From Climacium dendroides (taxonomy: Eukaryota > Streptophyta > Bryopsida > Hypnales > Climaciaceae): DNA of 64,000 nt. The stretch spans positions 20,291,538 through 20,355,537 of the forward strand of contig OX467091.1 in the NCBI GenBank assembly GCA_950106755.1, given 5' to 3'. The position numbers and the translations under genes are program-made. Numbering within the stretch: the first letter of the stretch is position 1; every line of letters begins with the position of its first letter. Under the pieces are notes generated by a model, which was given only the letters and a program-made list of their open reading frames with translations, searched no databases and was not told the DNA's origin. Positions 22,307 through 53,747 of the stretch are shown piece by piece.

Positions 22307-22320
22307 TTCACCCCTTCTAA
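22307..22320 (-). promoter_or_regulatory. Polypurine tract
   Basis: On the minus strand TTAGAAGGGGTGAA lies directly against the TG of the 3' LTR, the expected place for the plus-strand primer of reverse transcription. Confidence 0.8.
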
Positions 22321-22349
22321 ACCTGCACATCCTCTGGTATGTGCCAAGG

Positions 22350-25300: not shown

Positions 25301-25799
25301 CATCTCCTCCAATCTTGAGACTTGCTAATGTTTCCTCCGTAAATACATGACCAATCTTCTTCAAACCTCTAAGACTTGGCTCTTTCTCCGCTTGTCTAAT
25401 ATGCTTATCAATATCCGATGGTAATTGTGTCGCTACTGGCTTCACCTTCTTCGCCACTGTTTTGTACTTTGTATATACAGCAACTTCCTTTTTCAATCCA
25501 TAGCTCCCACATTCATCAAATAATGACATCGCCTTGAAGATTTCATCATATAATGTTTGCGAATGTATGCTGATCACAACGTCAATAGTATCACCCTCCA
25601 TTCCATACATTTCCAATGTCTTCAAAAATTGCATTACATTATCCGTCATACCTTTCTCTTCATAGACTCCATGAATGCTTTCTTCGTCCAAAAGTAAGTT
25701 CATACTCCTCAAATTATTCTCCATTTTTCTCACAACCTTCTTATATATACGGTCTAAATCTCCAATACACACAAACCGCACAAACCCACACTCTGTCAT
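22350..25799 (-). CDS. pol: Pol polyprotein: reverse transcriptase, RNase H, integrase
   Basis: About 1149 aa. RT spans roughly residues 200-420 with YSGYDQFQL, LPQGATNSV and the catalytic FIDD box (about 368). RNase H starts with TVDTSPIAIG (about 535) and ends near ADMLSRA. Integrase has the HHCC zinc domain (HDALWAGH...CVTCQ, about 760-800), then the core with D (WVIDLV), D (RADRGEL) and E (GKSERGH), then a GPY-type C-terminal module (WFGPYVV). Start taken at the ATG at 25799; a stop at 25815-25817 precludes direct extension upstream. There is no frame overlap with gag: a 95-bp gap with stops separates them, so expression needs re-initiation, splicing or a separate RNA. Confidence 0.93.
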   Translation of the reverse strand: MTECGFVRFVCIGDLDRIYKKVVRKMENNLRSMNLLLDEESIHGVYEEKGMTDNVMQFLKTLEMYGMEGDTIDVVISIHSQTLYDEIFKAMSLFDECGSYGLKKEVAVYTKYKTVAKKVKPVATQLPSDIDKHIRQAEKEPSLRGLKKIGHVFTEETLASLKIGGDGFLLELERKKFRDMLSTHGKAFASSSDEIGCVHPSVVAPMVIFTVPHVPWDLKPIPVPRALLPKLIELLKEKVRMGILEPSMAPYSNRWFTVPKKSGALRFIQDMQPANKVTIRNKGSGPIVDEVAEAFAGHAIYSIGDLYSGYDQFQLAFESRDLTTMKTPLGLVRMCTLPQGATNSVAHMQNAMNQILKEFVPHKTIPFIDDIPIKGCEEANRDCSIQNDGCRTFVSEHIRDVDNILSRLEEVNLTLSIEKSRFGTNEILVVGHQCGWYGRKPNPEKVDAIGKMKACSNTTEVRRFLGACVFYQIWIPHFAHISEALYKLLRKKNKFVWKHEQDLAMKELKNILQSPPILKQVEYESGRPVIVTVDTSPIAIGWAVGQNDAEGNRFAIRFGARILTERQRAYPQVKRELWGVLTALKAERNYIIGADVVLETDCLPLLGMISNCNSPDIAMLRWIAYIKSLNPILKHITGKMNPVADMLSRAKYFDEEEIMSYEKDEDIEDEGYVLATDIQSGVNEALPFREELYNGRLRDIGFYISTLERQEGWTDKAFKDIRHQSYGYLLQDGFLWKKAKRTDGLPLRVIDDFETKNQVLREFHDALWAGHRGIWATYTKIKERYWWKGLYKDVEEFVASCVTCQLQSKIRYRDELHPTYPPSIHFQWVIDLVIMPPGVWGMRYLVLAREELSNFVEGRALRTKTTEAVCRFILEDIFSRYRSIGQMRADRGELDVVEARNFFERYGVKLRLTTAYNPEANGKSERGHPPIIHALVKACKGKANIWPKLLPFSLWADRTTHSTVTGYMPIELMHGHKPMMPGEESIPTWVFLSWEDNITRERLLEIRIQQLGRLPEDMEIALERLKVARLGNKERFDKTHRLRIKEIEEGDWVLMFDSTLENQHSTVKKFSRRWFGPYVVMKKNGNATYTLRELDGTMLRIPVAGKRIKAFRRRDGRFDSNDLHLIFNPQMAQEDIGDDDDVYLGDDHR

Positions 25800-25894
25800 A
25801 CCCAAAATTCCACTCTCAATAGTATGTACACCGGGGAATTTTAGACTTCTAGATTCATGTGCACCCGCGGACCCCCATACTCCGCGCGTGCTCT

Positions 25895-28594: not shown

Positions 28595-28625
28595 TACCAA
28601 AACCAAAACTAGTAGCCCCTTAGCT

Positions 28626-28643
28626 CTCTCAGTGGAAGCACCA
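28626..28643 (-). promoter_or_regulatory. Primer-binding site
   Basis: Two bases after the 5' LTR the minus strand reads TGGTGCTTCCACTGAGAG. TGG is the complement of a tRNA 3' CCA. The tRNA is not initiator Met (which would give TGGTATCAGAGC); I cannot name it. Confidence 0.7.
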
Positions 28644-28645
28644 AA

Positions 28646-31398
28646 TGTCGGGTAATAAGAGTTTGCTTAGGGGAAACACAGGGTTTTTTGCTGCAACTAG
28701 AAGTGATTAGGTTTGAGAGCAAGTGAAAACAAAGTCAGGTCTTTGATTTATAACACCAAACTAAGAGAATACAATAGATGATAATACTTCAAGTGGAGGG
28801 AACTAAAGCTGTCCGTAAATAAATGGATGAACCATCAAGGTAAAAGAATAATCTTGAATACGCAAGAGTATGTATACAAGTATAGGTAGAAATACTTGTA
28901 TTCAAATACAAACGTCTTTATACCAAATATACAATATGTATAAAAGTCGTGTACGTATAGTCGTACAATACAAGTATAAAATACGCATAAAATTCGTGTA
29001 CGTATATACGTATAAATATGTGTATATGAATATGTAGAATACGTATATAATAGACCGTATATACACCGTATAAATATTAATACAAGTGTTTGTGTGGTTC
29101 TAAATGAAGTAGGAATCAAAACCGCAAGCCTTGAAACTCTTGAAGAAAGCAGCAACACTAAAATGGATGCTCCAAACACATCATAATCTCAAATGAAGTG
29201 TGTTATAAGTTTTTGAAAAGCTAACAACACCATCTACTCTTCCTCCAAATTTCAACAGAATCGAACTTACAAGTCATAAGTTATAGTCTTTCAAAGTTGG
29301 TGCTCCAAAATCCCTTGGCAACCGAACATGCATACACCTTGTAAGACATAAAATGCTCAAAAACGCTCCAAATTGCTTGATATTTGAGTCTTTGAAAAGC
29401 TTAAAGTATCATAAAGATCTCCTCCAAAACTGAACTCAAAATTCCAAATACTCCTCCTTCTATAGCACCCCAAACTTAAGCACTTCAAATTTGCTTGGCA
29501 ACTGAATGTACATGTGCTAGTTTCGGCCACAAAATGTTCAATAATACTCTAAAACTCTTGAAACTTGAAAGGTTGGAATCCTAACTTGCCTTAAAACTCT
29601 ACACCAAATGTTCAATTCCAAATTCCACCCTACCTAAGTTCTATGACACTCCAAATTCAAAACTAAAGTTTGTAGAAACGGTCTCTAACTTCATCTCCTT
29701 CTTCCTATCACTCCTTCACATTTCTGTCTATAACTTTTGTTTCACAAACTCAATTTACAAGTGTGATAGCTTTTTGAAAAGCTAACAATAAGACCTACAC
29801 TTCCTCTAAATTTCACTTGAATACAAGAAATATTGAGTCTGCAGGAGAGGCTCGAAGTCTCCACTTCTCTAATCGGATAGCAGCAGACCTTCCCTCACTC
29901 TTTTACTCATAACTTTCTCATAACAACTCCAAATCAAGTGAAACTAGTGCCAAAAGAAGCGCAAGAACAAGGTGTGCAACTCTGCCAAATCTCAAATCAA
30001 AATTCGTCTCCTACACAAAGCCTTAGTCGCTCGAAAATCACAGTATGCAAAAACTTTTTTCTTTTTCCATAACAACACACAAAAAAAAGAAGAGATGGAG
30101 GAGGAAGCTCCCTCCTTCCTTATCTCCTCTCCTAAGGACCACATCAGCCCATGACTTGACCCATAAGGCATCTAGAAGCCCATTGGTTGAGGTACTACTC
30201 CCTCTTATCTCCACTACATCTTCTATTCATTTACTAAAATCTTAGAAATTCAACTAGAAGGGAAAAACCAAGTAGGAAAAAAAACCCTTCTCACAACTTA
30301 TTGTAGGAACTTTAGAACAAGTTAAGGTTCCTCTAAACTCAACATAAAAAAAACACTGGATTACAAATCAACCGCTCTTAAAGGTATTTTAAGAGGAAAT
30401 AAATGACTAAACATGTAAAAACTCAAGGATTTGAAGAACTACTTCGGAAATGAAACTAGCCCTCCGTTGACTACTCAAATGACTGAGTTGCCCTTGAAGC
30501 CAAAGGCGATGCCCAACTTCACTTGAAATGCGACTAACCATCTGCCTTTCAGCGTTATTCTCAAAACGTCCTTCAAATATCATTTGATGATCTCCAGAAA
30601 GCGTAGATTCAGCCTCCAAAACAATAACCAAGGCCCTGGTATCAAGTTGAATACTTGCAGCTGCAAATTGAAAATTACTTGGGTCTGGATCTGTTCGCGG
30701 TTGAACACAACGCTCAGAAGGCTCAACTTCATCGCGTACACGACGTCTTGAAGTAGAAGGCAAATCAGGATCAAACAGCGGTTGAGATAATGGTAGCTCC
30801 CAATCCTCAAGATTCTGCGAATCCATCACTACAAATAACTGAATCCAAAATCAAAGCCTAAACAGGTTCTTCTAAACCAAGGAATGTAACCCATTCCCTT
30901 TATACAAAACTAATAGCTTCATTGAGAAGCTAATTCCAACTAACCAATCCCAAGTCAAATATTTATAGGTATATGTTTTTGTCTCAAAAGAAAACCTATG
31001 TAGAAATGGATCAAGGTACACTGCTTCGTTCATCTGATACCACACGATGCAACCATCAACGGTATAAAACCGTTGTGGGGCTAACAATCAACGCCAAGTT
31101 GCGGACTTGGCTGGTTGTTGAAGTCCCCGTTAGTTGTCGACTGGTTCCGGGTTCGAATACCATCGGGCCCGTTGAATCAATCTGAGCAGCGGCAACTTGG
31201 CACCGCTAGTGAAGGCAGGAAATAACCAGCCAGCCAGCCTCCTACTTCCCCTGAGCTAAGCGACAAGATGTAGTACAAAACCCAAACCGTGGATTTCTCC
31301 ACGACCCCACCTTTTCTAACTCAATCCTTATACTCCATTGACGTTCTAAAGAGTTCTTTTCGTAGTTTTTAAACACCACACCTATTTACAACACGACA
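28646..31398 (-). repeat. 5' LTR (element is on the minus strand)
   Basis: Same length and almost the same sequence as the copy at 19554-22306. The promoter of the element should be here: TATAAATA at 30960-30967 on the minus strand, which would start transcription near 30930. Confidence 0.93.
30407..30826 (-). CDS. 140-codon ORF inside the 5' LTR
   Basis: Copy of the LTR ORF in the 5' LTR. Here it would be the first ORF of the genomic transcript, in the leader before gag, if the TATA box at 30960-30967 is used. An upstream ORF of this size would be expected to lower gag translation unless bypassed. Function unknown. Confidence 0.35.
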   Translation of the reverse strand: MDSQNLEDWELPLSQPLFDPDLPSTSRRRVRDEVEPSERCVQPRTDPDPSNFQFAAASIQLDTRALVIVLEAESTLSGDHQMIFEGRFENNAERQMVSRISSEVGHRLWLQGQLSHLSSQRRASFISEVVLQILEFLHV

Positions 31399-36219: not shown

Positions 36220-36229
36220 GGCATAGAAT

Positions 36230-36380
36230 CAGGGTTGCTAGCGTGTGAGCTTGTGAGCGTGAGCATGTGAGCCTGTGAGCGTGAGCATGTGAGCCTGTGA
36301 GCGTGAGCATGTGAGCCTGTGAGCGTGAGAGCGGGAACTTTTTTGCTGGAAATTCAGATGAAGGACCTATGACCGTGGAT
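36230..36380. repeat. Left terminal inverted repeat and subterminal array
   Basis: After the terminal 21 bp there are about three and a half units of a 22-bp repeat (GTGAGCCTGTGAGCGTGAGCAT), then GAGCGGGAAC and GACCTATGACCGTGGAT. The right end carries GTGAGCC and GCGAGC motifs in inverted orientation. Such arrays near MULE ends are typical transposase or accessory-protein binding sites. Confidence 0.75.
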
Positions 36381-36518
36381 CTTATGATTGTTCATTTTTA
36401 TAATTTTGAAGACAAAATCTTTCTGGATTGTTTAGGAAAAATGGTTAATAATTCAACCCAAATAAACCCAAACAATTGTATATGAATTATTACATATAAG
36501 TGGTTTACGGTATAAAGG

Positions 36519-36620
36519 TTTAGGGTTTAGGGTTTAGGGTTTAGGATTTAGGATATGTAGTGGTAAGTTATTCTATACATGTGTTTAATGGTATTGAATG
36601 TTTAGGGTTTAGGGTTCACT
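36519..36620 (+). repeat. Interstitial telomere-type repeats
   Basis: GGTTTAGGGTTTAGGGTTTAGG and degenerate continuations at 36519-36552, and another two units at 36602-36616. TTTAGGG is the usual plant telomere unit. They lie inside the giant element, 290 bp from its left end. Confidence 0.8.
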
Positions 36621-36857
36621 CCAAGACAAAATTTGAAAATAACAATGTGTACAATGAATGTAACCATAAAACACACAAATCCACTCATATGAAAAAAGAA
36701 ATACAAGAAACTATAACTCACAAGACATATCTACCTTGTGAATCTAGGCAACAGAGGATTCGGTTGCAGAATCATTGTTAGTAGAAGAATTAGAAGTCTC
36801 TCTACCTTCCGATGCACTTACATCTAAATACTCTAACACATTTAAAGCATAAGTGTC

Positions 36858-39800
36858 TTATCGCTTCTTTGGTTTAGAACCACCAAACTCTATAAATGCC
36901 GAGGCCATCTGCTCTGCATACACTAGCAAATGAAAAGACTTTTCCGGAGTCAAAACAAGTCTTCTTTTGCGCAATATTGCATCATGGAATGTCACTTTTT
37001 GGTGTCTGCAAAATCAAATTAAAATATGTTAAAATCATAAACACAAGCAACAAAATATTCACATTGAATGCACACCTCTGAAAACTTACTTACTAGTGTT
37101 TTGATTCCGAGCAAAACTAAAGACCTCCACCTCCATTGCATCAGGATCTTTAATATTGTCATCCTCTTCCTCTTCTTCTTCTTCTTCTGTCGTCTCTTCC
37201 TCCTCAATCATCCTCTTCATAGGCAGCAAGATCGCGTTGAAAATGGCTTCATCCTTCTCCAAAGCTACAACATGTCGGCCCGTCCCTCGACATGCCGTAA
37301 TTGATGCACCTAACAATAAACACATGCAATTCATTAGCAAAATTGGAGATTCAGAATTTTATAAATGAAAACAATTCCACTTGAGCTTAACCTTACCAGT
37401 TGCTCCTGTATTATCGAAGACAATGTCTCCTTCGCTTGTTGTTCCTTCAATGATGAATTGAAGAAGCCTTGCGTCTTTCTCACGAGGACCCCGCCACAGT
37501 ACGCTTCCATTCATCAACATACTGTCAATGGTGGAATAGTTGATCAACGTATCGTCACGTTCAAGATCTACTTTGGCCTTCTTCATTGCTTCAGTCAACT
37601 TGAACTTGAACTGAGACTTCCGTCTCTTGTCAAGCTTCTTCACCAACAACGAGATTCCAAACTTCATTGTCTGCAAGTCCAAAATTCAATTAAACATTTA
37701 TAATACATAATGCAATCAATCCCAAGCACAAAAATAAAACAACCAGTAAATTGCAAGACATCCATACCGTGTTTATCGGATTGAGGCCTGAAGTCAAGTG
37801 CATGCGATTGATTCCCAACCACTCTTTCAACTTTAAGAATGGATATGCCTGAGTCAAACCAACCACCACGCCCCTTGCCTTTGCACTCCAGGAATGAAAA
37901 ATGACAAAACAACCATTGTCTTGCAAATGTTTCGTTGCAAATAAAATTGCCTGTTCAATCTCTTTGAACTCTTTATCATGGTTCCATTCGGGCACATGGT
38001 TTTCTGGTACAGACACTCCTGGAACAGGGAGGTTTTCTTGAAGGTCAAACAAAATGAGATCAACTCCAGCCTTTTTGCTCATCTCGCCATTGAACATGCG
38101 AGTCTTGCCATCAGCCACCTGCATACAAAATATCTATTAATGATTCCAAGAATTCAAAATAACAAGTTTATGCAATATGTTGATATTGTGACATGGCAAA
38201 AACTCAAATATAAAATACACACCTTCACCAAGAACTCCATAACTTCCCCATAGCATGATCCATTTCCTTTGCCTTCATTTTCCATCACATCTATGATAGA
38301 GTTGTTGAGAATCAACTCCTCCGTGTTCACCTCCTCGTCATCTCCAATAACAATCACTTGGGTGCCTTGTGTGACCATCTCTTCAGTGAGCTCTTGCAAG
38401 ACCGCCTTCCTCTTCACGCCACTACGTGTTCCAGACTCCATTTGCGATCCTTGGTCCACTGTACAAGATCCAGGCACTTGATCTCTACCCTCCACCTTCT
38501 TCTTCCCTTTACCTTTATGCTTCCCTTCCTTCTCTGCCTCCTTCTCCTTCTCAGCCAACTTTGCTAAACGCTCTGCTCCTTTCTTCTTCTTGTTAGCCTT
38601 CATGTCATTTTCTTTTTTTTTCTTCTTCTCATCTGCAATTGTTCTGCGTAAAATAGCTTTCTTCTTTTGGGCATCGGGAAGGTCCGCAAATTCGGGCACC
38701 TCTAAATCAATCACCTCAAGTCCGTCAAATGATTTGCGCAATGTAACTTCTGAAGAGTGGGTGTACTCCAGTGGGCACTCCAAGTACCATCCGCCACCAA
38801 CCAAATTAGCTGTTGTAAACGTCCGGAGCTGAGTGGGTGAAAACATGCACTCTTTTGAACTCCGATCCACCCAAGACATAAGGAAAGGAGGTAGAGAGCC
38901 TTGTGAAATAGCGCCTTTAGAAACAAGCTCGAGATTGAAGTACCTAGAACATGAGCACAATCATAAGCCAATGTTTGAAAAGATAGTAGCCTATATAATT
39001 TTTAGAATATTAGGTCTTGTATTTCATCAACTGCAAAACTCATAAATGTTCAAAGAACTCAATTGAACACAAAATGAATCCCTTCCAAGATTACATTGAA
39101 CTATGCTTCACCAAAAGGTGGGGTACTAGAAGGGAGCCAGAACACCCCCGTCGGGTCCGAAGGAGGTATTCATGGTCCCTTTTGATACTCCAATTTTTTT
39201 ATGTTTTTAATTTTTAGTCGGAAAAATGAACAATTTTCATTCATAAGGAGAAATACAACATAGAACCAAAGGAAAAGGTCCCTAGAAAACTTTTATTAAC
39301 TTTTTTTAGATGAACATCAACAAGAAAAAATGAACACAAGGTAAATTCCAATTGCTAGTTTCAAGGATCAAAAAATATTGTCTCTTTATTATTTTCTATT
39401 CATTTGCCTAAAAGTAATTTATAAAAAAGAAATAAACATCTTGAAATAAGTAACCATTCAGAAATGATCCAAACTTATTATTCATCTACCATATCATTTT
39501 TAAAAAAAAATGATAAGTTCTCTTAGAAAACAAAAAATGGGGGTACTGGCAGGGAGCCCTTGTACCCCCTTCGAATCCGACGAGGGTATGAAGGCTCCCT
39601 CCCAGTACTCCTACTTTTGGATTCCCGAGAGATTTAAAGAAAAATTATAAAAGTTGAAAAATAATTTTTTAATTTTTATTTCACTTGTCAATTTCAACAT
39701 TAAATTATATATTTGAAATCTTACTGGTATAGAACCCTCCGGACGGCTTGGTCCGATCCTTCGCGACTCGAGAATGAATCATGCTTTTTGAAGTTGTTGG

Positions 39801-42530
39801 TTCCCTTCAAAGTTGGGCCAAACGCGTATTCCCATACCTTCACCCTCCACCCCTGAATGTACACCGCTAGAGTTTCTGGGGGTTTGGGCAAGTCCATGTT
39901 GATGACTAGCTTGTCATTTGCCACAATGTCGTCTAAATACTCCTGAGCTGCGTCTTCAAGCTACATGAAACAGAACAATTAACTTTCTCATCCAAGAAAT
40001 GCAACTTCCATTGAACAAAAAGTTATTCATTTCAAATGCAGCAAAGGGCATGAAATTGCATTCAAAATAACTATTGTTGACAACAACCATTTTGTATGGT
40101 AAGGGACATTACCCCGGCCCACCAAACAATTTTTCCAAGAAAAATTGTGAATTTATCTTCTGAGACTGGGGGCACTGGAAACTTCAATGCCTCTTTTGAA
40201 GCACCGGAAGAATTCCACCATTTTAAGACTTTGACCTTATGAGCTGCAGACATTGTGCTTGTTGCAAGCAATTGTAGCTTTTCCAAAGTCATTTCAGGAA
40301 CCTCATTCCTAATCCAATGCTCCTCCACCTACAAAATAACATTATGTGAATAAATATGCATCTTTTTCGCAAAATAAGCAAAACAAAGAACTCATTTGAT
40401 TGGAATTTTTAAAATTACCTCTTCAAGAAATTCTTTTCCAAGAGCAGGATCTGCAACGGCCAGTAACTTGCCCATCTTTCCACGTAACTTTGAGACTTTT
40501 TCTTTTGCAGCAGATCTCATGGCGTCAGCAACTCCTCGGTTGGTTCTTTCTTCAGCAGGTGTCTTATCAAGGTAACGTCGAGCAGCAACGTCCGCAGCCT
40601 GAGAAATTTCATGCTGCAAATGATATTCATCACCAGAAATTTGTAAGTAATGAAACTCAGAATTTAGAGCGCCTACCTTATTTTTTTGTAAAGAAAAAGA
40701 ATGTAGTAGGCAAAACTGAACTCACCCTAAAATTAAATGATGTGAAAACTTCCACGGGCATGGAATACCACGCCTTTCTACCCATTTGATACACGCATTG
40801 CTTCCTTTCTGAGGGCCTCAACATCTCGTAGATCTTCTTTATCTCCATTTTCCCGTACTTTTGCACACGATACAACGTGTGCACCAAATTCGTCTTCACA
40901 TGTGAATCTTCAGTGGACCTGAAATATTAAACTCAAATTTTCAATCCACACAGCAATCACACAATCTATCATAAACCAACATGAATAAGATGAAATATAA
41001 ATAAACAATGGAAAAATTTAAAAAAACAAATCACGAACTTGTTAATTGCATGCATTACTTGCATTGTCATTTCCACTCTTCCTTTAGTTTCCAGCATGAT
41101 GCAATCCACCGAAAAATGCCAGTTGATGTCTAAAGGATACTTTCTTTGGATATGGCTCATCCATGCAATCTGTCGATGGTTGCCATCACATATGAAGAAC
41201 TTCATATTCCTCATGAAATGCAACTCTGGTCTTGTTTCCAAAAATGCTAGGAACTCATCATTTCTTTGTTGCCATAAGGGGCCCCAATTTTGAACCTCCT
41301 CCTTACTGAACTCTGCTCTCTCGCCGGCCTCATTGGTTGTCGAAACATAAAATGACGCTGCTCCATCTCGATAACCATGAGCAAAGTCTTGCTCAAGTTT
41401 ATGTAAATCGGAAGAAAGTGTTGGCCTAACCATCGGCATTGGCACTAACCTGCAAAGCAGGATCTTCATGCGCGATAAGCTCTCTGGCTTAAACCTCAGC
41501 ATCGATAATGTTGCCATAGAGTCGACCTTGTGAAAACGACGAAGCTCATCCTCAAGAAAATCTTTGTCTTCTTCCTCAAACTCTGTCTCCTCCAGTGCCT
41601 TGTCCCAAATCTCATCTCGACCCGCTCCTAACATTACTTCACCTTCTATGTCTGGTTGTTGAGAGTCATCCGTTGCAGGTGTAACTTGGTGTTGCTGGTT
41701 TTGGGACAATATCTTAGGCGAATCTTCTCTCTATAAAATAAAAAACACCAAATAGTAGAAAGACAGTCCTTGTCAATAGAATGTCAAACAAGAAGCTTAA
41801 ATAAAATGTATTCATCATAAAATTATATGTGCAATGATGTATACAATAATAGTAAGAATTTATTACCAAAAATTCTAGCTATGCTTTTGGCCAGTTGATA
41901 AAACAAAATGCTATTTATTTATGAACGAAATTTATTAATTCCATACAATGAATCAATCTTAAATGTATTTAAATAGTGTACGTCATACATACATAGATAC
42001 TTGACAAATGGAAATTTATATATGCATAGAATAAATTGCCACAAATTCATGTATCCTTTTCATTAAAAAAATCATTCAATGTCTACATCATCTTGAAAGT
42101 TGGAACACTGGTGAATGATGACCAAGCGATTATATCGCAATTGTTTCCGTCCTGAACAATCACAATGCACAGGACCCCAAGGACTAGAAATCGATGGGGA
42201 CAAATCAGCATCAGAGCTGAATGAGGAAATGTCACAACCCTCTGTGTCAGAACTCTCCGCTGAAAAAACAGGTTTTCTAGGATCTCGAGGCTTTGGGAAA
42301 CTAATTCGGCTTCCCTTATCTTGCTCAAGCTCATTAGCAGCACGATCACACGCATCCATAATATCATCAAAACTCACCACATCCACTTCAGGTCCTAAAT
42401 TGTCGCTTTCCATCATTGGAAGTGGCCTTGGCGTTTGAAAAACTCGCTCCTCCACAATCTCTTGGCCCAAGACTTCAGATTCTGCATACGAAGATGATGC
42501 CATGCTAGGATTCACGGCTGTCATGTCCAT
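36858..42530 (-). CDS. ParB-like and DNA-methylase-like fusion protein, 11 exons, carried by the giant transposon
   Basis: Predicted coding exons: 42530-42087, 41730-41039, 40918-40726, 40613-40419, 40328-40113, 39960-39725, 38943-38223, 38118-37768, 37670-37397, 37309-37090, 37005-36858. All ten introns are GT-AG, phases agree and the sum is 3690 nt (1229 aa). The first junction is the least certain. Order: acidic N-terminus; ParB-like segment with FFICDGNHRQIAW followed by helices; helical middle; K/E-rich linker; C-terminal methylase-like domain with VDLILFDLQENLP at the motif IV place and later GDIVFDNTGATGAS...VVALEKDEA as motif I with SAM-ribose acid. IV before I is the beta-class order. 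The C-terminus ends KPKKR. DPPY is replaced by DLQE, so catalysis is doubtful. A DNA-marking or anti-silencing role for the transposon is inference. Confidence 0.72.
39121..39191. repeat. Core palindrome 1
   Basis: Arms GGGTACTAGAAGGGAGCC and GGTCCCTTTTGATACTCC pair imperfectly around a GTCGGGTCCGAA centre. Lies in the intron 38944-39724 of the methylase-like gene. Confidence 0.8.
39539..39611. repeat. Core palindrome 2
   Basis: Arms GGGTACTGGCAGGGAGCC and GGCTCCCTCCCAGTACTCC around TTCGAATCCGACGAGGG. Same intron as palindrome 1, about 350 bp away; closest relative of palindrome 1. Confidence 0.8.
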
Positions 42531-43316
42531 CTACAAAGCATTCCACCAAACAATTTAATATTTGACATAATAATTAATGCAAAGAAATATGAATCAAGGG
42601 ATGCTCCTCTAAAAGCTGTGGAAAGCAAAAAAAATTAAAAAATTAAAAAACATTAATAAAAATTAATATCTAATTTTTCTAAGGCAAAGTATTTTTAAAG
42701 AACACTATAAGTGTAGAAGCTAAGTGTCACCTATGCATTTCAATTGCTTCATCTCTTATTCAAAGAAATAATTAAGGAATTATTTTGATTATTATAGTGA
42801 TGGTATCTAATAACATACTTTATCCTTTGAACTTATCCCAACATAAAATGAAAGAAAAATGAGGAAAAATGAGATACATGAATGAATCTAAGTAAAGAAA
42901 TTTACAATTTAGTTATTTACCCTAAACTATCTAAATATGTTTTCAAAATAATAAAGACAAAAAATCTGTAGAAACCTTTCAAAATTTCATACTTTAATAT
43001 AATTTATTCAATGTGAAATTAATATACAATATGCATGCATAAAATTAGTCATTCTTAAAATTTTCATATCATTTTCAATGCTTGTTTTAATAAATTATGA
43101 ACAACTGAAATTACATGTAGACATAAAATTATGTATCCTACTATATGAATTATTATAGTTTTAGTGAAATCTACTCAAATAATGAACTATTACACATATT
43201 TGCATGATGAGGAACATGTAATAGAAAATATCATTAAAAAAATCAACATTGGAAGGAAAACAATAAAAAAAAGGATATAATTCTAGTTTGGGTCCCCTCA
43301 TGTGACGAATTCATGT

Positions 43317-43383
43317 GGTGTCTTCAGATTCCGTTTAATGCCCGTCGGATCCGACAAGGGTTATGGAAGAACTTGAAGACACC
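43317..43383. repeat. Core palindrome 3
   Basis: Arms GGTGTCTTCA and TGAAGACACC pair perfectly at the outside; centre GTCGGATCCGAC is a perfect 12-bp palindrome. Preceded by CCCCTCATGTGACGAAT, which is also found before palindrome 4. Confidence 0.85.
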
Positions 43384-43454
43384 CTCAAAATTAGTCATCG
43401 AAGTGGTACTTGTACTCTATTTTTTATTTGACCCTCTCATGTGACGGAATACAG

Positions 43455-43524
43455 GGGTAGCTGCAGCTACTTACTTGACCCTAGTCGAACCCGACGAGGG
43501 TGCACTGCGATGCTCCCACTACCC
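43455..43524. repeat. Core palindrome 4
   Basis: Outer arms GGGTAG and CTACCC, centre GTCGAACCCGACGAGGG. Flank CCCTCTCATGTGACGGAAT repeats the flank of palindrome 3, so the repeat unit is longer than the hairpin. Confidence 0.75.
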
Positions 43525-44000
43525 ATAGATTCTGACTTTTGGAAAAATGGATCGATTCAAATTAAATAATTCGGCTATCTCCAAAAATGAAATTCTTGGA
43601 ATTTCCATTATGGAGTTTTCTTTTGTATATTTGCTACTCTCTCCAAGAGGGAATATCTTGATTCCAAAGTCATCCAAACTACAACTAACACATCCTGATT
43701 TTTGTACTCAACAATGCAAGAGGTCACAAATCATCAACAAACTTAGGAACCTAAGGTCACCAAATCCAAAACTAACCGAATCAAGAATTCAAGGAAGCAG
43801 TTCACCGCATTATGAAATGGACAATGCCTGAACCCTACCTATTTGTAAACAAAGCTAGTCACCAAATCCAATCCGAACGCACATACGCATCTTGGACGCA
43901 TCCCAAACGCAAGACAAAACAATTTGACTTCTCATGAACTGACATTGCAGACAGAGCATGCATCGGTACCAAGGGAGGAACGTCTCAAATGACAGATAGT

Positions 44001-44074
44001 GGGGGTATCTGGAGCGTTCCAAGGGAACCCTGTCGGGTCCGACGGAGGTCGACAGGTTGCTCAAGATACCCCCC
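44001..44074. repeat. Core palindrome 5
   Basis: Arms GGGGGTATCTGGAGCG and TGCTCAAGATACCCCCC around CTGTCGGGTCCGACGGAGG. Confidence 0.8.
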
Positions 44075-44799
44075 AAAATGGCCGCGGCATACTTTCGGGC
44101 TTCCGGACTCACAGACTGTACCCCGCCTCGGCCGCCACCGCGCCTCGCGTTACGCTAATCCCCAGGGCTTGCTGGAGGAGAGCTTCGGAAGGGAACGGGA
44201 ACGCTAGCGAAGGATCTGGGGTCGACCTAGCGGAGCTGGACACTCGCCCCAAGATTTATTTTGCCGCTGGAGTCACCGCAAGATGAACTGGGCGCTACGT
44301 ATCGGCACAAGACCAACCCTCCGCGTCTGCCACCGATCAAGGCGACAGAGTTCATATGGACAATTCAATTCACAACGTTGACAGGCGGGACACCCAGGGG
44401 GCAAGACCCGCTCGGGTAGCACGAGGTTCCGCAGACACAAATATCAATGCAATCGGAAGCCGGGAATCTTGACAGACAAGTCCGCCTACCGTGCATCGAA
44501 AGACGGTCATTGTTGCGTCGATGGATCTTTCACCGATTCGCCCCCCCCTCCCCTCGCGCCACGAGACCCTCAGGGGCGCGGCAACGGTCTTAGACGTCAG
44601 ACTCAAACTCAAACTGACAGACTGGGACACGGAACCCACCTTCCAATCGCACTGACAACCCAAGCCTCAAACTTTCGTTTTCCAAGCAATCGCATGGCGA
44701 ATCTCGCCCCTCGGACGCCCACCACCACCACTCACGTCCAACGATCACAACAGTACTAGGCGACATGAACAAGGCAGCACAGTCGGGATAGTCAGGTAC

Positions 44800-45180
44800 C
44801 GAGCAAATCACCCAACCACAGGCACCGAGAAAATCACCAACCCGCGCTCGCGCTTTCCCTGAGGATCCCGTGGAGAAACCGAGCAGATCAAGGCACTGAG
44901 CTTGCGCTTTCCCTGAGGATCCTGTATAGAAACCGAGCAGATCAAGGCACCGAGAAGTTCAAAGTTCAAGGCACCGAGCAAATCACTGAATCGCGCTCGC
45001 GCTCTCCCTAAGGATCTCGTGTAGGCACCGAGCAGATCAAGGCACCAAGCAGATCAAGGCACCAAGCAGATCACTGAATCGCGCTCACCTTGACGATTCC
45101 GTGAAGCATTGAGCAGATCGAAGCACCCAGCAGATCACCCAACCGCGCTCTCCCTGAGGATCCCCTGGCAGTAGGATCCG
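44800..45180. repeat. GC-rich minisatellite
   Basis: Imperfect reiteration of GAGCAGATCAAGGCACC and GCGCTCGCGCT(T/C)TCCCT with AGGATC(C/T)(C/T)GT. At least six copies of the first motif and four of the second are arranged irregularly. No ORF spans it. Confidence 0.7.
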
Positions 45181-45344
45181 GTGGAATCCTTCCCCCACGA
45201 AACTATAACAAGACTCTCAGACTCAGACTCAAACTCAGTATCAATGCTCTCAGACTCAGTATCGATGATCTCTCAGACTCTCAGCAGGGGTCTCGAAGCA
45301 GGGGTTCAAATCTGAATTCACCTTCGGGGACAAAATACAAGGGT

Positions 45345-45407
45345 AACCGAAGATCACCGCAGGACCCCTGTCGGGTCCGACGCTTGTCCGCAGGTACCTC
45401 AATCGAC
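45345..45407. repeat. Core palindrome 6
   Basis: Inner arms GATCACCGCAGGACCCC and CTTGTCCGCAGGTACC around TGTCGGGTCCGACG; the outer arms are more decayed than in the other copies. Confidence 0.65.
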
Positions 45408-45496
45408 TATGGGAATCAGTTCACAATGCAGTCCAAGCTACCTCCACACCCACTGAGATTGAACAAAAGAGAAGTTCATGCTATCTAGAATCGTAC

Positions 45497-45613
45497 CTAC
45501 AAACTTGCATCTTCATTCTCGCGTTCCAATGCTTCCTCAAAATCTTCCTCCAATGGACGGCTCCGAGTTCTCCTACGAGGTTGACCTTTGCTGGGGCGCT
45601 GCAAGGTCGACAT
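45497..45613 (-). CDS. Short basic-acidic ORF, possible first exon
   Basis: Reads MSTLQRPSKGQPRRRTRSRP followed by an acidic tail (LEEDFEEALERENEDASL) and a stop. Composition looks coding. It may be a distal 5' exon of the methylase-like gene or a separate small protein; no donor site was found that joins in phase with the exon at 42530. Confidence 0.25.
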   Translation of the reverse strand: MSTLQRPSKGQPRRRTRSRPLEEDFEEALERENEDASL

Positions 45614-45959
45614 CGTGAGAAATTTAAAATTTCGACTATGCAATTTCAAGTTCTGAACGAATTGAGAATAAGAAAGAATGCCGTTTTGAATTCCAGGCAA
45701 GAGCAGATTGATCAAATTTGCCGGAGGTGTGCTGCGAGCTTCACTTCAGGCTGCAGGCCTTGATACTAGTGGCGAGGGGTGGACTCCTGTGGCAAAATCG
45801 TCTCCAAACGTTGAAGATAGGAGAATTCCAAAAAAAGCTACTAGAATTCTATTTCCGAAATGGATGTAGCGTGGCTTCTGGAAAGCTGAAACTAGACAGT
45901 TGGTCCCGAGAAAGAGACGGTACAGTTGCAGAGTCTGGGTTTCCTTTAACCCCAAAGTG

Positions 45960-46900
45960 ACATGAGATATCTGGGGTCTAAAAACATCCTGCTATTGAAG
46001 CTATGCGGACCTAAATTTCTTCAAGTTATACAAATCTCAACCATACAATCTCGTAGTAAACATGTTTTATATGACGTGCACAAAACTTGAAGTCAATTGG
46101 TCGCATAGATTGCGAGATCATAATGATTAAGTGTTGAAAATGAATGCTGAAATTTTTACCAGAACACATTTGGAGGTGAAATTTGATTTCTAAACCTACT
46201 GAAATGAAAGAAATTTACAGTACAAAGTGATTTAAAACTACTATACAAAGACATTGGTGAAAAAAAAATTCATGAAATTGAGTCATGGTGTCTAAAAAAC
46301 AGCTTCGAACTGCCAAAAAATAGTCAAAAAAAGTGCAAAAAACACATCTAGGGCTGAACCTCTCCCCACTAGAATGCTTCTCAGTCACTCAATTCTTCTT
46401 GGATTGACATGAAATTTTAGCCGCACAAACTAGACTTCTAGGCACAACTTTCCCAATAAGTTTTATTGAAAACGGACTTTGTACGAAGAAGATATAAGCC
46501 ACCAAAGTTCACTGTACTCCAAAAATGACAGGGTTTAGAACTTCGAATTGCTTCCAAACATTCCAAACAAATTGGATTGACATGAAACTTTTACCACAAT
46601 AACTAGACTTCAAGAAAAACAAATCAAAACAAATTTCAATGAAAACAAATCATTAATGAAGAAGATACAAGTCCCTGAAGTTGCAGCCCTAAAATGCAAT
46701 TTTGTGAACTTTTGCAAAGCTGTGCTCTTTGATTGGCTACTAAAGAAACAACACATCTTTGATTGATTTGAAAATTTAACCACATAAACAAGAAGAATAA
46801 GTGCAACTTCTCCAATAAGTTTTAGTACATTTGAACCTTGGATGGAGAAGTTATAGTAGACTTAAAACTATGTGAGGACACTTTTTGTCCTCCGTGACAC
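45960..46900. repeat. Degenerate tandem repeat, about 170-bp unit
   Basis: Three related blocks, each with TTG(G)ATTGA(C/T)(A/T)TGAAA then CCACA/CGCACA, ACTAGACTT or similar, CCAATAAGTTTTA, and a GAAGAAGATA(T/C)AAG or GGAGAAGTTATA end. Strongly diverged; no coding capacity. Confidence 0.45.
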
Positions 46901-47139
46901 TTTGGGACCCAAGGCTCGTGAACTCATCCATCTTTGCGATTCCGAGTTTCCCACTTGATGGAAAAGAATGACAAAGTGATAATAAACCACATAAGCTAGT
47001 AGGTTCTCAGATTGCACACCTAAGAGCTAAAACTTCATTTTGGAGAGGTGAGACGGCCTGGAATATTTTTTACATCTAATTCCAACATATTGCAAAGCAT
47101 TGAAAGGGTAAGAGTTGGTCCGTAGAATCTTACTAGCAA

Positions 47140-47448
47140 AAGTTGATCGCCTTCTGAGATGCCTTGCAAGCTTGTCATGCCCTCATCAGTTGTCTTCGTC
47201 CATTCTAACTCCTGGACTTCTCGATCCATTTCTCCACCACTGCCTCCACTTTCAAAACGAAGATGTTTTTGAAGTTTTGTCTGTGACGACTGGCCTATCT
47301 TGGACGAAGTTTTCTTTGAGCGAGTCATTCTAGATCGTCTAAGTGACTTTTGCGATGAGAAATAAAGAGAAATACGTCTCTTCCGTTTGTTTCTATGGTC
47401 TGGAACTACGTCTGCAAATCTATCACAATCTGTAAGCATGAATACCAC
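47140..47448 (-). CDS. Possible exon of unknown gene, strongly basic
   Basis: Open frame with a very basic stretch (NKRKRRISLYF, LRRSRMTRSKKTSSK) and then a more acidic part, ending at a good GTAAGATT donor near 47140. No downstream exon was found: the next sequence is a remnant of the AAGGTA MITE family. It lies between the two divergent genes of the giant transposon. It could be an N-terminal exon of a third gene or a chance frame. Confidence 0.25.
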
Positions 47449-48148
47449 TACATAAGCCTCAGAGGTCTCAATCGATGAAAAGCATGGTGTCTATGTTAAA
47501 CGCTGCAGATGGAAAGACATGAAAGAAAGAGATGTAAAGCCTATTTATTTAACGTTACCAACTAGGTTCGTTCACTCAAAGTCTCAAACGGCCTCGGAAG
47601 ATTAGGGTTGGGAGAACTACCGCCTTTTTATTTGAATATTATGGACAGCCCACCTAACATTTGATGAGCCGTCTTCTAATTTTGACACCTTATTAGATTC
47701 TGTATCTTTTACTTTAGGATATAAGACTAACACATTTGAATGAGCGATCTCTTTCACGCATTTTGTCAGAGCTGCCTTCATTCATAAATATATTTTTTTA
47801 ACGAACCTTTTAATGAACACGGCTACAACGGTAGACTCATAAATTTTTGTTTTTGGAATGAAACTTCTTCCAGAGTTGTGACATCCCATTTATTTCACTA
47901 AATTCTATTGAAAGCAACAATATTTGAACTAAATGACGGCTCTGCCATATGAATAATTTCTACACCTACTGACAACTACACTTCACCAAACAATTTGTAC
48001 TTTTGGAATGTTATTGGTAGAATTGAAACAACATAATTTGTGTTTACTATATAGTACCTCACATCTTCTAGCTTCTGTCTTTATAGTTCAAGACTTCAAT
48101 GTATCTCTTGCTTCTAAATCGTTTGTTTTGCACTGCTGTTTTATCACC
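47449..48148. promoter_or_regulatory. Upstream region of the transposase
   Basis: About 700 bp before the transposase start. The reading frame is open back to an ATG at 48008, but the ATG at 48149 has a far better context (ACCATGGC) and begins the first protein-like segment. No specific promoter element is assigned. Confidence 0.35.
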
Positions 48149-50617
48149 ATGGCTTGCATTAGAGTAGATGGTCATGCAATTCCAGTGGTGTTTCCGTTGG
48201 TTGGTGGAAATCAAGCGAGAGTATCTAGTCATCTTCTACATGTACGTTTCAGGTTTGTTGAGTCTTCAATCTACATAGAAGAAGAGAGGAAGTCTGAATG
48301 TAGTGAGAACATGGAGTTTGTTCCTATTACAAAGAGTGAGGATGAGGATGGAGTTTGTTGGTTCCTTCCTTTAGGCAACTATAGAGCTTATGGTCTTCCT
48401 TTGTCCATTCAAAATGCATCCACGCAGATGGCTAGTCGCCAGTCCGATAACTCCACTGTAGATATGCCGTATGTCACAAGTGCAATCTCTCCTCGACTTC
48501 TTCAGAGCGAATTTCCAAGTCCTAGTCCAAGTACTTTTCTACGCGCTGTAAAGATTGAGAAATTGGACTCTGTAATAGATTTGTCAAGTGAATCAGAAGG
48601 AGAGTCACCTGACGTTACTGTCCGTGAGAAAACGCCATCCATTGGAAATAATGTTGATAGTCATGAGATTTTCCATTCCTTTTCGGACACCCAAACCAAT
48701 ACTTCTGCACAGTCTCCGTTGTCTCGTCCTCCATTGTATCCGCCTACACTTGATAGGAAAAGCATAATGGAATGCTTGAAGAATTTGAAGAGCATGCATA
48801 GATCTAGGAACGAACTGTCCACAATAGATTTGAATGCCATCAAGCACCATCAAGTTGGGTTTCTTCCACCAATCTTCAATGGGGATGTCATCTTCGAGTT
48901 GCCTCCATGCCGCACGTGGCCATCTTCATCGGCTGCTGGGAATTTGGAGGGGATGGACAAACGTTATGATGGACATGTGTGGTGTAAGGTACAAACTACC
49001 AATATTCATAACCCTGATAAGTTGAAATTCCGGAAGTCCTATTGCGTTGGTCATCTTGTTTGTGTGAATCCTGATTGTGAATATGTGAAGAGAGCTAATA
49101 AGTGCAATGAGACAGAGTGGAGTGGATATACAGTGTCTCCATTTGTAGTAGGCGACAATCCTTCTAAGGATTGTACGTTAGTTTGCAAACTTTGCAAGGA
49201 GACTCCAAAGTGTCTAAAGCAATGTGAGGCTAGAATATACTACTGCTATAGTGAGGTTCCTAAAGTGACAAGGGCTGCAATTCATCTTGGATATCATTCT
49301 CATCCAGTAGCAAAAGGCATGTATAGAGATTCTGCAGACAAGATTTGCGAACTCATTGCAGAGCAAGTGGCAAAGACCCCTACTGCCACAAACTCTGCCA
49401 TTGCTCTCTCTGCAAGCAAAGATTTCCTCACGACATATTTGTTTCACAACGGAGAGGGAGAGAAAGAGATGTTGAAGGGTGAAGAGCTAGAAGTGGTTAT
49501 GGATCGTTTCCAGTACCTAAGCAGTCCCAACATTAGAAACGTCATATCCTCATTTCGCTCAAACAACTATGGAGGCATCATCGACAACATAATGATGATG
49601 AAGAAACAGTCAAAATTTGAATTCATTCACGACTGCGTCTTTCCTGGCCAAGGAAAGGGGAAGGTGTTCATTTTCAAGATGCTCACTGAAGGACCTGGAA
49701 GTGGTGTGGACTTAGTGAAACGCATGCAACTTGGTGGAAATCTTCAGAATGCATGGATGATGTTCGACCACGTCAAGCGTGTAAAGGAGTGGACGACAAT
49801 GGCTTGCCATGTGTATGATCCAGATTACAAGAGGGTCATGACCATTGGAATTTGTGATATGCAATCAGAAGATACCGAGATTCAGGTTCTCTTTTGGAAG
49901 TGCTTGAATGCTGTAATGTCGCGACATGGAGTTGAAAACCCGAATTTTAAAGGATTTATGGCTGATAGTGCTATGGCCAACTGGAATGCCGTACGAATTG
50001 TATAGGGAAGTGGTTTTGCAGATCAGAAAATGGAGAATAGGGAAAGAACATGCTTATTGCATTGGAGTACTTCACTCCAAAAACACACACAGAAGTACAT
50101 TAAAGAAGCGTTTCAACAGCAGCACACTTTACTTTGTAAACAGTACAAAGATGCGAAGTCCATGGAGGAAGCAGAAAACAAATACTTGGCAATTCGGTCG
50201 TGGTGGTTGTCGTCAGGAGCCACTACTGAAGATGCTCTTCACCACTTAGAACATTGGCTTGCCTTTTGGCATTTTCGATATAGGCAATGGGGAGGATTCA
50301 TGCAAATGGTAAGTCAATTTCCTTGGACACCTTCTATCCTTGAAATTCCATTCGCAAATTTTATTTATTTTTAATTCAAAAAAATTTAGAAAAATAATTC
50401 ATATTTATATAATTTACTTAGAATGTCGATTCGATTTCCTAAATCATTGCTTTAAGGAAAATAGAAATGTTAAGGACTGTTTCAAAGTTGGTGTATAAAG
50501 AAGGACAATAAATACATCCATCAAATAGGAGTTGTATACATTAGATGAATTTTAGCATCTTAGAAAAAATTATCATTTTTTTTCCAAAATTTTCACAAAA
50601 AATTAGTGTACAAATCT

Positions 50618-50701
50618 AAAGTGGAGGTAAGAGGAGGGACCTTCAATACCCCCCTCGGATCCGACGGGGCTATATTGGATCCTTCTAAGTACCCTTACTT
50701 T
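50618..50701. repeat. Core palindrome 7
   Basis: Arms AAAGTGGAGGTAAGAGGAGGGA and the mirrored TCCTTCTAAGTACCCTTACTTT around CCTCGGATCCGACGGGG. Lies in the intron 50309-51091 of the transposase gene. Confidence 0.8.
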
Positions 50702-50907
50702 GGATTCATGTTTGAGGAATTCGGACAAAAAATTTCCAAAAATTGAAAAAAAAATGTGATGATTGTTGGGGTGACATAAAATCCCTAATTTAGATGTAAG
50801 GGGTTCATTTTTTGCCTCCAATAAAACATTGAGTAAAGGTGTTCTGAATTTGTATTTTTGTTTCAGGTTTAGGAAGAATTTTGAATTTCGCCCCCTAAAC
50901 CAAAAAC

Positions 50908-50981
50908 GAGGGTAGTAATAGAAATACCTGAGACCCTCATCGGATCCGACGGGGGTATTTGAAGTCCTTATTAACACCATC
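50908..50981. repeat. Core palindrome 8
   Basis: Arms GAGGGTAGTAATAGAAATACCT and the mirrored TATTTGAAGTCCTTATTAACACC around CATCGGATCCGACGGGG. Same transposase intron as palindrome 7. Confidence 0.8.
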
Positions 50982-52480
50982 ACTTTTTATTTATGGACTT
51001 ATAAATATTCATTTGTATCTTTGAGGGTTTTTGAAGATGGTATGAAATATTGAATTACCAAAGCGTAATATTTGAGTGGTTTCATTTTCAGGATTTGAGT
51101 TTGGAGGAACTTGCAGATATGCCTTCATGCAATTTGTCAGAAACTGTGCACAACAAGTGGCTTCAAATGTCTGGGAACAAAGGAAACAATCTCTTTGACG
51201 CTACATGTGATGACAGTATTCGTGCATGGATGCAAATGACAAATTACCGAGCGTACTTGAAGGGACACGCTTCTGGATCTGGTCCGTCGAAAGGAGAGCT
51301 AAAGTTGAGAGCAGCAAGACGTAGCGGTGATCCTAAGAAAATTGCAGAGGCTTTGAATTCATTGCCTGGTTCTGAAGGTGTTGGAACTCGCATTCCACAT
51401 TTAGAAGGAGAAGAGGTTTTTGGGAGCACAAAGAGGAAGTTAGACGTTCCCATTGGCGATGCAGGGGACTCGCATAGACCTGATAAAGTTAACTTTTCCC
51501 AACCTCGTGTTCGGACACGGTCCACGACAGCGTCAATAGAATCTTCAAGAGATAAAGGTAAGCAACCTCAAGTGAACACTCCGACACACGTTACGGTTGC
51601 GTTTGAAAGTGATTGTGATACATCGAAATGGCACATTGCAAGGATTAGTCACAAGTCCAATGCAAAATGTTATGCTCAACAACGAGATTCAAACATCACT
51701 TGCAAGGCAAAGATTGCCAAAGGTCGGAAGGGAACCCCTGCTCCAACCTATAGTGGAAGAAAGATAGATTACGGGACCAAGAAAGAAATAGTGGCAGACT
51801 TTTGGTTCTGTGCAGATGACATTGAACGGTGCGTCAAGGGTAACAAACGGAGGTGGGTTATGGAGTGGCCGGCGGTTCCTGAAGTATGGCCAATCTTAAC
51901 AGGAACAAATCTTACCCGAGAGGAGACGTTATTGTTGCAGCATGCTGGATTTCGACTTCAAGAGCGTCATGTGTTATCTCCTCGACGACTATTCAGTATG
52001 TCTAAAATATTTGAGACTGTGGTATATGACGAACCAGTTCCAAAAGACGCACACGTATATCCAACTATACGAAACAGTCGTACTATTCGCTGAATTGCAA
52101 ATGCACCTACAATTGAACAACGCAACAAGTGGGAGAGTGCTGGCAACATCAAAGGACAGATATTGGGAGTGACGTTGTTACCATTTCCTGGTTTAGGAGC
52201 GATTGTTTCACTACAAACTGGGGTTGAACCAAATTCAAATGTATATCGAATTACTGTGGGCATGTACCCATCGTGCACGTGTCCTAACTTTACTTCTATG
52301 GTAGTTTCAGCAATAGGAGGTCGACAGCAGTATGTGAATTGCAAGCATTTGTATTATTTTTTCCGGTACTTTTGCAAAATGGACGTAAATGAAGACAAGT
52401 TCATCCATGCACCAAGCTATAGCTTCAACGAGTTGAAGCTTATTTTAGTTAAGGCGGGGATAATAAGAGTGCTAGAATAA

Positions 52481-53154
52481 GAGCAGGCACTAGTTGAAAG
52501 TACTGCAATGGTATGATAGAAGACAAAATTTCATAGAATTCTAAATATTTTCTGTTTACTAAGGAAGTTATCATTTTCTTATGAAATTCATCATTTTGTT
52601 CATTTCCTCTTTCCACTTGTAGTTTGGATTTCATTAATATTAATTCCAAGACTTCAATCATTATGTTTTTATTTGGAAGTTTGATTGCTTTGTCATTATT
52701 TTTTGAAGTATACTATGTGTTCATTGAAGAAATTTTTTTTATGTTGGTGATCACTTCATTAAAAAGGATTAATGCAGCAAGAGGTCCAAGAGACTTAAAC
52801 ATGAAGGCATGGATTCTTTATCTCTACTTTTTTTGGATCATTGTTGCAAACTGTAAACCACACTTATGCAAGCATTCATGGTAGTTTGTTAGCACAGAAT
52901 ATCGATGAGTGCTGAAAATAGAGAAGAGTGCCTAAACCAATGTTCCCCGGCTCCTATTCATATGTCCCATACCGATTGGCATTGCGGATTGCACCAATAT
53001 AAAAGGTGTAATATCCGGTACTCAGGTGTTGTAGAGGACTATTTAGGGAATAGACTTTCTCAGTCATCTTGAGGAGAATTATATTCCCAACACTCCTGTG
53101 ATTTTGTTTAAAAAATTAAATGAAGCTTGTACAAAGGATTCAAGTAGCACTTAA
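52481..53154. other. 3' region of the transposase, no gene seen
   Basis: AT-rich sequence between the transposase stop and the right subterminal repeats. The 86-codon hydrophobic frame at 52624 has no support. Confidence 0.4.
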
Positions 53155-53539
53155 TATATTTTTTAATACACAGTCATAGGATAAGTGGTTATAGGTCCTA
53201 AATTTAGCTTTAATAGGAACTAAAACCCATTTTTTTTTTAGGTACGCTTTCTCCTAAAATCCTAAACAATGACTTTCATTCTCACCATGCGGTGGATTTT
53301 TCTAAAACAGAATAATAAATTTCCAAAATATTTACTCATCCACGGTCATAGGGTGCACGGATATAGGTCCCAAATTCAACATAAACAACCAAAAAAATTG
53401 AATTTTTTGAATTCTTTTAGCAAAAAAAAAATTTATTAAACAAAAAATGAGAAATTTCTGGCTCCCCGCTTCCCGATCACACTCTCCCCGCTCGCCGCTC
53501 ACAGGCTCACGGCTCCAGGCTCGCACGCTAGCGTCGTTG
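53155..53539. repeat. Right terminal inverted repeat and subterminal repeats
   Basis: Ends GCTCGCACGCTAGCGTCGTTG. Inward lie GCTCACAGGCTCACGGCTCC and ATCCACGGTCATAGG...ATATAGGTCC, the inverse of the left subterminal block. A second, diverged copy of the inner block (CAGTCATAGGATAAG...TATAGGTCCTAA) sits at 53167-53200. Confidence 0.7.
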
Positions 53540-53747
53540 GGCATAGAATGAGTGTTTATAGTGCTTAGAAATACAAAACTAGTGTTGCAGTTGGGACCTC
53601 GGAGCGTTGTTGACAAAAAACTTTGACTGTGAGTGCTGAAGTCAAGGAAATTTTTTTTTAGTGGACACTATTCATTTCTTGTTTTTATATTATTGCTTGA
53701 CATTTTGTCCCTTGTTATGTGACAAAGTGCAATGTTGAGCTTCAAGC

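Follow-up and report, generated by a model that had tools for sequence, protein, structure and literature searches.

The accessory gene and its support

The window analysed here is the whole 64,000-nt stretch of Climacium dendroides contig OX467091.1 from position 20,291,538 to 20,355,537, and all coordinates are positions within it. It contains a MULE-like DNA transposon with two divergent genes on opposite strands, a transposase region on the plus strand and, on the minus strand, an accessory gene whose predicted protein has a ParB-like part and a methylase-like part. Dispersed in the same element are eight copies of a palindrome. The co-occurrence of a ParB-fold protein and dispersed palindromes in one element suggests that the accessory gene encodes a self-recognition protein of the transposon, a reading that we offer tentatively, as plausible though somewhat short of probable. 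The gene model is as follows.

36858..42530, minus strand: ParB-like/methylase-like accessory gene (model of 11 exons, 1229 aa, one terminal stop)
42530-42087, minus strand: exon 1, weak donor GTAGACAT
41730-41039, minus strand: exon 2, ParB/Srx domain with DGNHR and MPMVRPTL, weak donor GTTCGTGA
40918-40726, minus strand: exon 3, continuing beyond the ParB_N-like domain; joined to exon 2 by the homologue P0039
40613-40419, minus strand: exon 4 (gene model)
40328-40113, minus strand: exon 5 (gene model)
39960-39725, minus strand: exon 6 (gene model)
38943-38223, minus strand: exon 7 (gene model)
38118-37768, minus strand: exon 8, methylase-like motif IV region, with D-L-Q-E-N where DPPY is expected
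37670-37397, minus strand: exon 9, which with exon 10 (37090..37670 including the intron) forms the methylase-like motif I region, DNTGATG
37309-37090, minus strand: exon 10, motif I region shared with exon 9
37005-36858, minus strand: exon 11 (gene model)

The eleven exons and 1229 aa given for 36858..42530 in a preliminary description of this DNA were reproduced exactly, and all 10 introns start with GT and end with AG. The splice sites were picked by eye for an open frame, so the open 1229-aa frame alone is no independent evidence; support from relatives covers exons 2, 3 and 8 of the predicted model. With exon 2 as the query, 122 homologues were found at E≤1 (best 6e-83, 61% identity; the best 120 of the 122 are listed). 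Where the exact end of exon 2 could be recognised as a boundary (77 homologues), 64 ended there, as would be expected of a conserved splice site. The homologue P0039 spans exon 2, an open intron-like stretch and exon 3, and was aligned to residues 211-443 at 49.6% identity. The methylase query returned 6 homologues, every one over the exon-8 part, at 45-89% identity. For P0008 (an exon 2 homologue) and P0124 (an exon-8 homologue) the longest contig has the same length, 4688, and the two may therefore come from a single contig. Residues 180-1229 used as one query found no homologue at E≤1 among 7985 candidates scored; a likely reason for the difference from the exon 2 query is that eukaryotic DNA is represented in the database by single-exon calls. 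The gene model, with P0039, supports the earlier proposal that the ParB-like and methylase-like domains belong to one predicted intron-bearing gene.

The ParB-like domain

Fold comparison placed the exon 2 domain in the ParB/Srx fold. DGNHR lies at residue 330, and we take it to be the counterpart of the ParB arginine motif (GERR type). Of the 120 homologues listed, 92 have it and 9 more have DGNHx, and the pattern missed 19. The fold and this recurrence sustain the ParB-like domain that had been proposed around DGNHR. The domain is nevertheless distant from chromosomal and plasmid ParB, Noc and KorB, with 10-16% identity in the 12 best rows of the fold comparison and DGNHR presumably standing for the ParB arginine motif. 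No ParA was noticed, though no search was aimed at one.

An alignment (A1) combined exon 2 with 70 homologues that were selected from the 120 listed, by eye, for length and coverage. Family profiles compared with 71 sequences matched 21 families at weak E-values, among them DUF1015 in 8 of the 71 (best 0.002), KMP11 in 6 (best 0.00092), Phage_tube_C in 3, DndB in 3 and DUF6551 in 2. DUF1015, DndB and DUF6551 are, we assume, ParB-like families; the KMP11 and Phage_tube_C matches were taken as spurious. In a viral structure library there was one match at E≤0.001, to an uncharacterised protein of Cafeteria roenbergensis virus (1e-4), and many phage ParB-like proteins came next in rank. A PDB sequence search with the ParB part found no member of the ParB superfamily, its comparison with phages gave 2 matches that were both at chance level, and pattern scans of viral and prokaryotic contigs, within their sensitivity, found no exon 2 relative. 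One match, L001, was set aside as a poly-Glu chance match.

A ParB superfamily domain joined to an adenine methylase-type domain is also seen in the prokaryotic fusion Bce_0392, for which the accessible part of the report describes nicking by the ParB domain (PMC5512222); the gene at this locus differs in bearing introns. By fold, the exon 2 domain belongs to the same superfamily as this bacterial ParB-methylase domain, and the accessory protein might accordingly be imagined as a nucleoside triphosphate-regulated nickase or nuclease that aids excision or replication of the element. Cleavage would, however, be expected from the transposase, and we regard a nickase as very unlikely.

The methylase-like domain

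The second domain occupies about residues 900-1140. PF01555, the only match at E≤1 in a Pfam scan of the whole accessory protein, covers residues 946-1133 at E 6e-4, and on the cut-out region reaches E 7.4e-6 and 26.5 bits, just below the cut-off of 26.7. Other profiles agree, including DpnA (1.5e-5), a CcrM model (3.6e-7, but far below its own cut-off) and several PHROG methyltransferase profiles (best 4.5e-9). When two phage enzymes, taken from 308 matched records, were aligned with this region, motif IV came before motif I, which is the beta-class order, and VDLILFDLQENLPV of the accessory protein aligns on VDLVVTDPPYNISV of the phage methylases. Motif I reads DNTGATG in this copy, with its acidic residue placed as in the two phage methylases; no relatives of the motif I exon were found in the methylase-query search, whose 6 homologues cover the exon-8 part.

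The catalytic motif is changed in all seven sequences compared. In this copy and six relatives, motif IV reads DLQE (2), DCQE (2) or DCPE (3), that is, the Asp is kept, the aromatic residue of the catalytic DPPY is Glu in 7/7 sequences, and (D/N/S)PP(Y/F/W) was not found. Both prolines are gone in this copy. On this sequence evidence the domain would be a pseudo-enzyme or one of strongly changed activity, and it has probably lost its chemistry. The methylase-like domain of the preliminary description stands by profile and by beta-class motif order, and falls short in its catalytic motif.

That description suggested that the protein could mark or protect the transposon's DNA; on the marking reading it would be a working methyltransferase for N6-adenine or N4-cytosine that the ParB-like part directs to the element's own DNA. 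The adenine methylase profile matches, the placement of the motif I acidic residue and the 36 invariant columns among the seven exon-8 sequences all speak for such an enzyme. The replacement of (D/N/S)PP(Y/F/W) by D-(C/L)-(P/Q)-E in all seven speaks against it, and since the catalytic aromatic is Glu in each of them, we consider enzymatic marking quite unlikely. The aromatic loss also counsels caution in reading transposon 'methylases' as DNA-marking enzymes. C5-methylase-like cysteine chemistry was considered as well, D-C-Q of the exon-8 relatives presumably resembling the P-C-Q of C5-methylases; it was dropped, the Cys being present in 5 of the 7 sequences and replaced by Leu in this copy and in P0121.

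The element and its class

The boundaries of the element and its transposase region were placed as follows.

36230..53539, no strand assigned: whole element, MULE-like DNA transposon of 17,310 bp, bounded by target-site duplication and terminal inverted repeats
36220..36229, no strand assigned: left target-site duplication GGCATAGAAT, exact 10-bp match to 53540-53549
53540..53549, no strand assigned: right target-site duplication GGCATAGAAT, exact 10-bp match to the left copy
36230..36333, plus strand: left terminal inverted repeat, containing tandem repeats of 22 bp (gapped flank alignment)
53462..53539, minus strand: right terminal inverted repeat (gapped flank alignment)
47957..52480, plus strand: transposase region (47957 is the stop-to-stop start; intron 50309-51091 by splice inspection)

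The duplicated GGCATAGAAT occurs only these two times in the window, on either strand. The terminal inverted repeats are imperfect and start with CAGGGTTGCTAGCGTG and CAACGACGCTAGCGTG; long terminal inverted repeats flanking the two genes were not detected by a repeat finder, and the short ones came from gapped flank alignment. Target-site duplications of MULEs are about 9-11 bp long, and the D..D..CxxH arrangement that was read by eye in the transposase is one that we take to be MULE-like. For several MULE groups a 9-bp duplication is given in the accessible part of PMC6446971. A SWIM match on the transposase stayed below the cut-off (E 0.1 and 0.81 in two scans), and no Pfam transposase match was listed at E≤10, where filters drop most matches above 0.1. 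From the duplication length, the inverted repeats, the sub-threshold SWIM match and the by-eye D..D..CxxH we infer a MULE-like class, and say 'MULE-like' rather than MULE because no transposase profile matched. Of the earlier placement of the gene in a MULE, the DNA transposon with its ends and 10-bp duplication is confirmed, and the class itself is held back by the missing profile match.

Further features were noted inside the element. Tandem repeats of 22-bp period lie in or beside both terminal inverted repeats (36240-36333 and 53462-53529), the right array being shorter. A GGTTTAG tandem at 36517-36552 resembles, we presume, the plant telomere repeat. Between the divergent genes are two different imperfect repeat arrays (44788-45150 and 46399-46868), the first within a GC-rich stretch (44001-46000). 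A 151-aa minus-strand open reading frame at 47035-47490, upstream of the transposase, is possibly a third gene of the element.

Palindromes restricted to the element

The palindrome core CGTCGGRTCCGACG, allowing ≤3 mismatches, has eight copies, all in non-coding parts of the element.

39149..39162, no strand assigned: palindrome core 1, intron 6 of the accessory gene
39569..39582, no strand assigned: palindrome core 2, intron 6 of the accessory gene
43343..43356, no strand assigned: palindrome core 3, between the two genes
43483..43496, no strand assigned: palindrome core 4, between the two genes
44031..44044, no strand assigned: palindrome core 5, between the two genes
45369..45382, no strand assigned: palindrome core 6, between the two genes
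50653..50666, no strand assigned: palindrome core 7, transposase intron
50938..50951, no strand assigned: palindrome core 8, transposase intron

Counted on both strands, the core has 16 matches, where 100 shuffles gave 0.95 on average and 6 at most. With a leave-one-out matrix the sites score 17.8-37.2, and positions farther than 20 bp from any site reach 5.6 at most. None of the eight lies outside the element, in 46.7 kb of window flank, and none lies in the exons of either gene model. If the sites were placed independently, the chance of all eight falling inside the element would be 2.9e-5, a post hoc figure whose assumption of independence would be broken by local duplication. The exact palindrome was absent from the viral contigs scanned.

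The cores sit in 72-bp units with GGGTA-like and TACCC-like ends, and the invariant columns of these units are mostly in and beside the core rather than in the arms. In a gapped comparison the arms had a mean score of 7.0 within a copy and 2.9 between copies; their likeness was clearly higher within the copy in four of the eight, the other four having within-copy scores of 3 or 4. The eight palindromes may be binding sites of the accessory protein.

Comparison with known systems

Published systems are compared here as far as the accessible parts of the reports describe them. The closest is Sola1-1_Ec32 of Ectocarpus (21.5 kb), which encodes, antisense to its transposase, a 1104-aa protein with ParB-like and N4/N6-methyltransferase domains; similar proteins are cited from green and red algal transposons, and the authors suggest an active DNA-marking methyltransferase for their own protein (PMC12477816). 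Both cases unite the two domains in a single protein of comparable size, encoded antisense to the transposase within a giant DNA transposon. By description, the only basis of this comparison, they differ in that Sola1-1_Ec32 is placed in Sola1 whereas the present element is MULE-like with a 10-bp duplication. Palindromes and catalytic loss are not mentioned for Sola1-1_Ec32 in the accessible text of PMC12477816. The Ectocarpus protein overturns the earlier statement that no description of this arrangement was known. No report of a MULE-like or land-plant case, of the palindromes or of the catalytic loss was found among the papers listed, judged mostly by titles and the starts of abstracts; what is apparently new here is that the element is MULE-like, that the catalytic aromatic is lost and that the palindromes are confined to the element.

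VANC of Arabidopsis VANDAL elements is likewise an accessory gene of a MULE-type element, and short sites recur in that element's introns and intergenic DNA. Sites of VANC21 are YAGTATTAY, often in tandem repeats, with binding seen by chromatin immunoprecipitation sequencing and gel shift; the signals peak in the non-coding DNA of VANC21's own element, in introns and in intergenic and terminal parts (PMC5735166). VANC carries DUF1985 and DUF287 (PMC5735166), unlike the present protein, whose Pfam scan at E≤1 gave neither. The TET/JBP dioxygenases carried by fungal DNA transposons (PMC12730594) are a further case of a DNA-modification-related accessory gene, although the enzyme is unrelated.

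A possible role in self-recognition

Under the self-recognition reading, the ParB-like domain, together with the part of the protein that follows, would bind the element's palindromes as ParB binds parS, and the bound domain would perhaps spread as a nucleotide-dependent clamp. The methylase-like domain could work without methyl transfer, as an S-adenosylmethionine- or DNA-binding module. Protein bound in this way might keep the element distinct from host chromatin, and its most likely effect would be to counteract silencing, or to steer transposase expression and end pairing, in the manner of VANC, which counteracts silencing on VANDAL elements. The fuller proposal, a ParB/parS-type module of a eukaryotic transposon in which a clamp fused to a chemistry-less methylase loads at the eight palindromes, spreads and holds off silencing, is rather doubtful as a whole. 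The VANC-like role suggested earlier gains from the eight element-restricted non-coding palindromes, and its enzymatic side is made unlikely by the Glu in place of the aromatic residue. Protein and palindromes were assessed in one copy of the element.

Several observations weigh against self-recognition. A helix-turn-helix beyond the ParB_N-like domain was not identified, exons 3-4 not having been modelled. The structure check proposed earlier for both folds supported ParB/Srx. For the methylase-like part, the exon-8 model was poor (pLDDT 50.8) and unusable, and a second look at its structure matches showed no methylase.

Folding is better than that of shuffled sequence in five of the eight 72-bp units (z -2.46 to -5.93), though not in the other three, so the palindromes could be small independent repeats. 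They would then be unrelated repeats or insertions like miniature inverted-repeat transposable elements, and the protein would bind another target, or DNA without sequence preference. The 72-bp units with their GGGTA/TACCC-like ends, the partly self-complementary arms of some copies and a clustering explicable by local duplication agree with this. Their absence from the 46.7 kb of flank and the concentration of invariant columns around the core, not in the arms, do not, and we think this explanation fairly unlikely.

The transposase of this copy also has in-frame stops at 50003 (50003-50005) and 52091 (52091-52093), and because of these a helper copy would seem necessary for it to move. The same stops would suit a captured gene that does nothing for the element and is now drifting. 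Set against the open 1229-aa frame and the conservation of exon 2 in its 122 homologues, with DGNHR in most of those listed, this is the least probable of the explanations considered. Self-specific evasion of silencing by transposons is understood in molecular detail for few systems, VANC among them, and the present element would offer a candidate protein and candidate target sites together.

Elsewhere in the window

An apparent Ty3-type long terminal repeat retrotransposon was noted by eye at 19554-30850, with gag/pol-like open reading frames on the minus strand. Its terminal copies, spaced 9092 bp apart, include an identical 300-nt pair and an identical 147-aa open reading frame, and the identity of the ends suggests a recent insertion. 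At 9993-10436, a 111-bp unit is repeated four times inside a 480-aa open reading frame.

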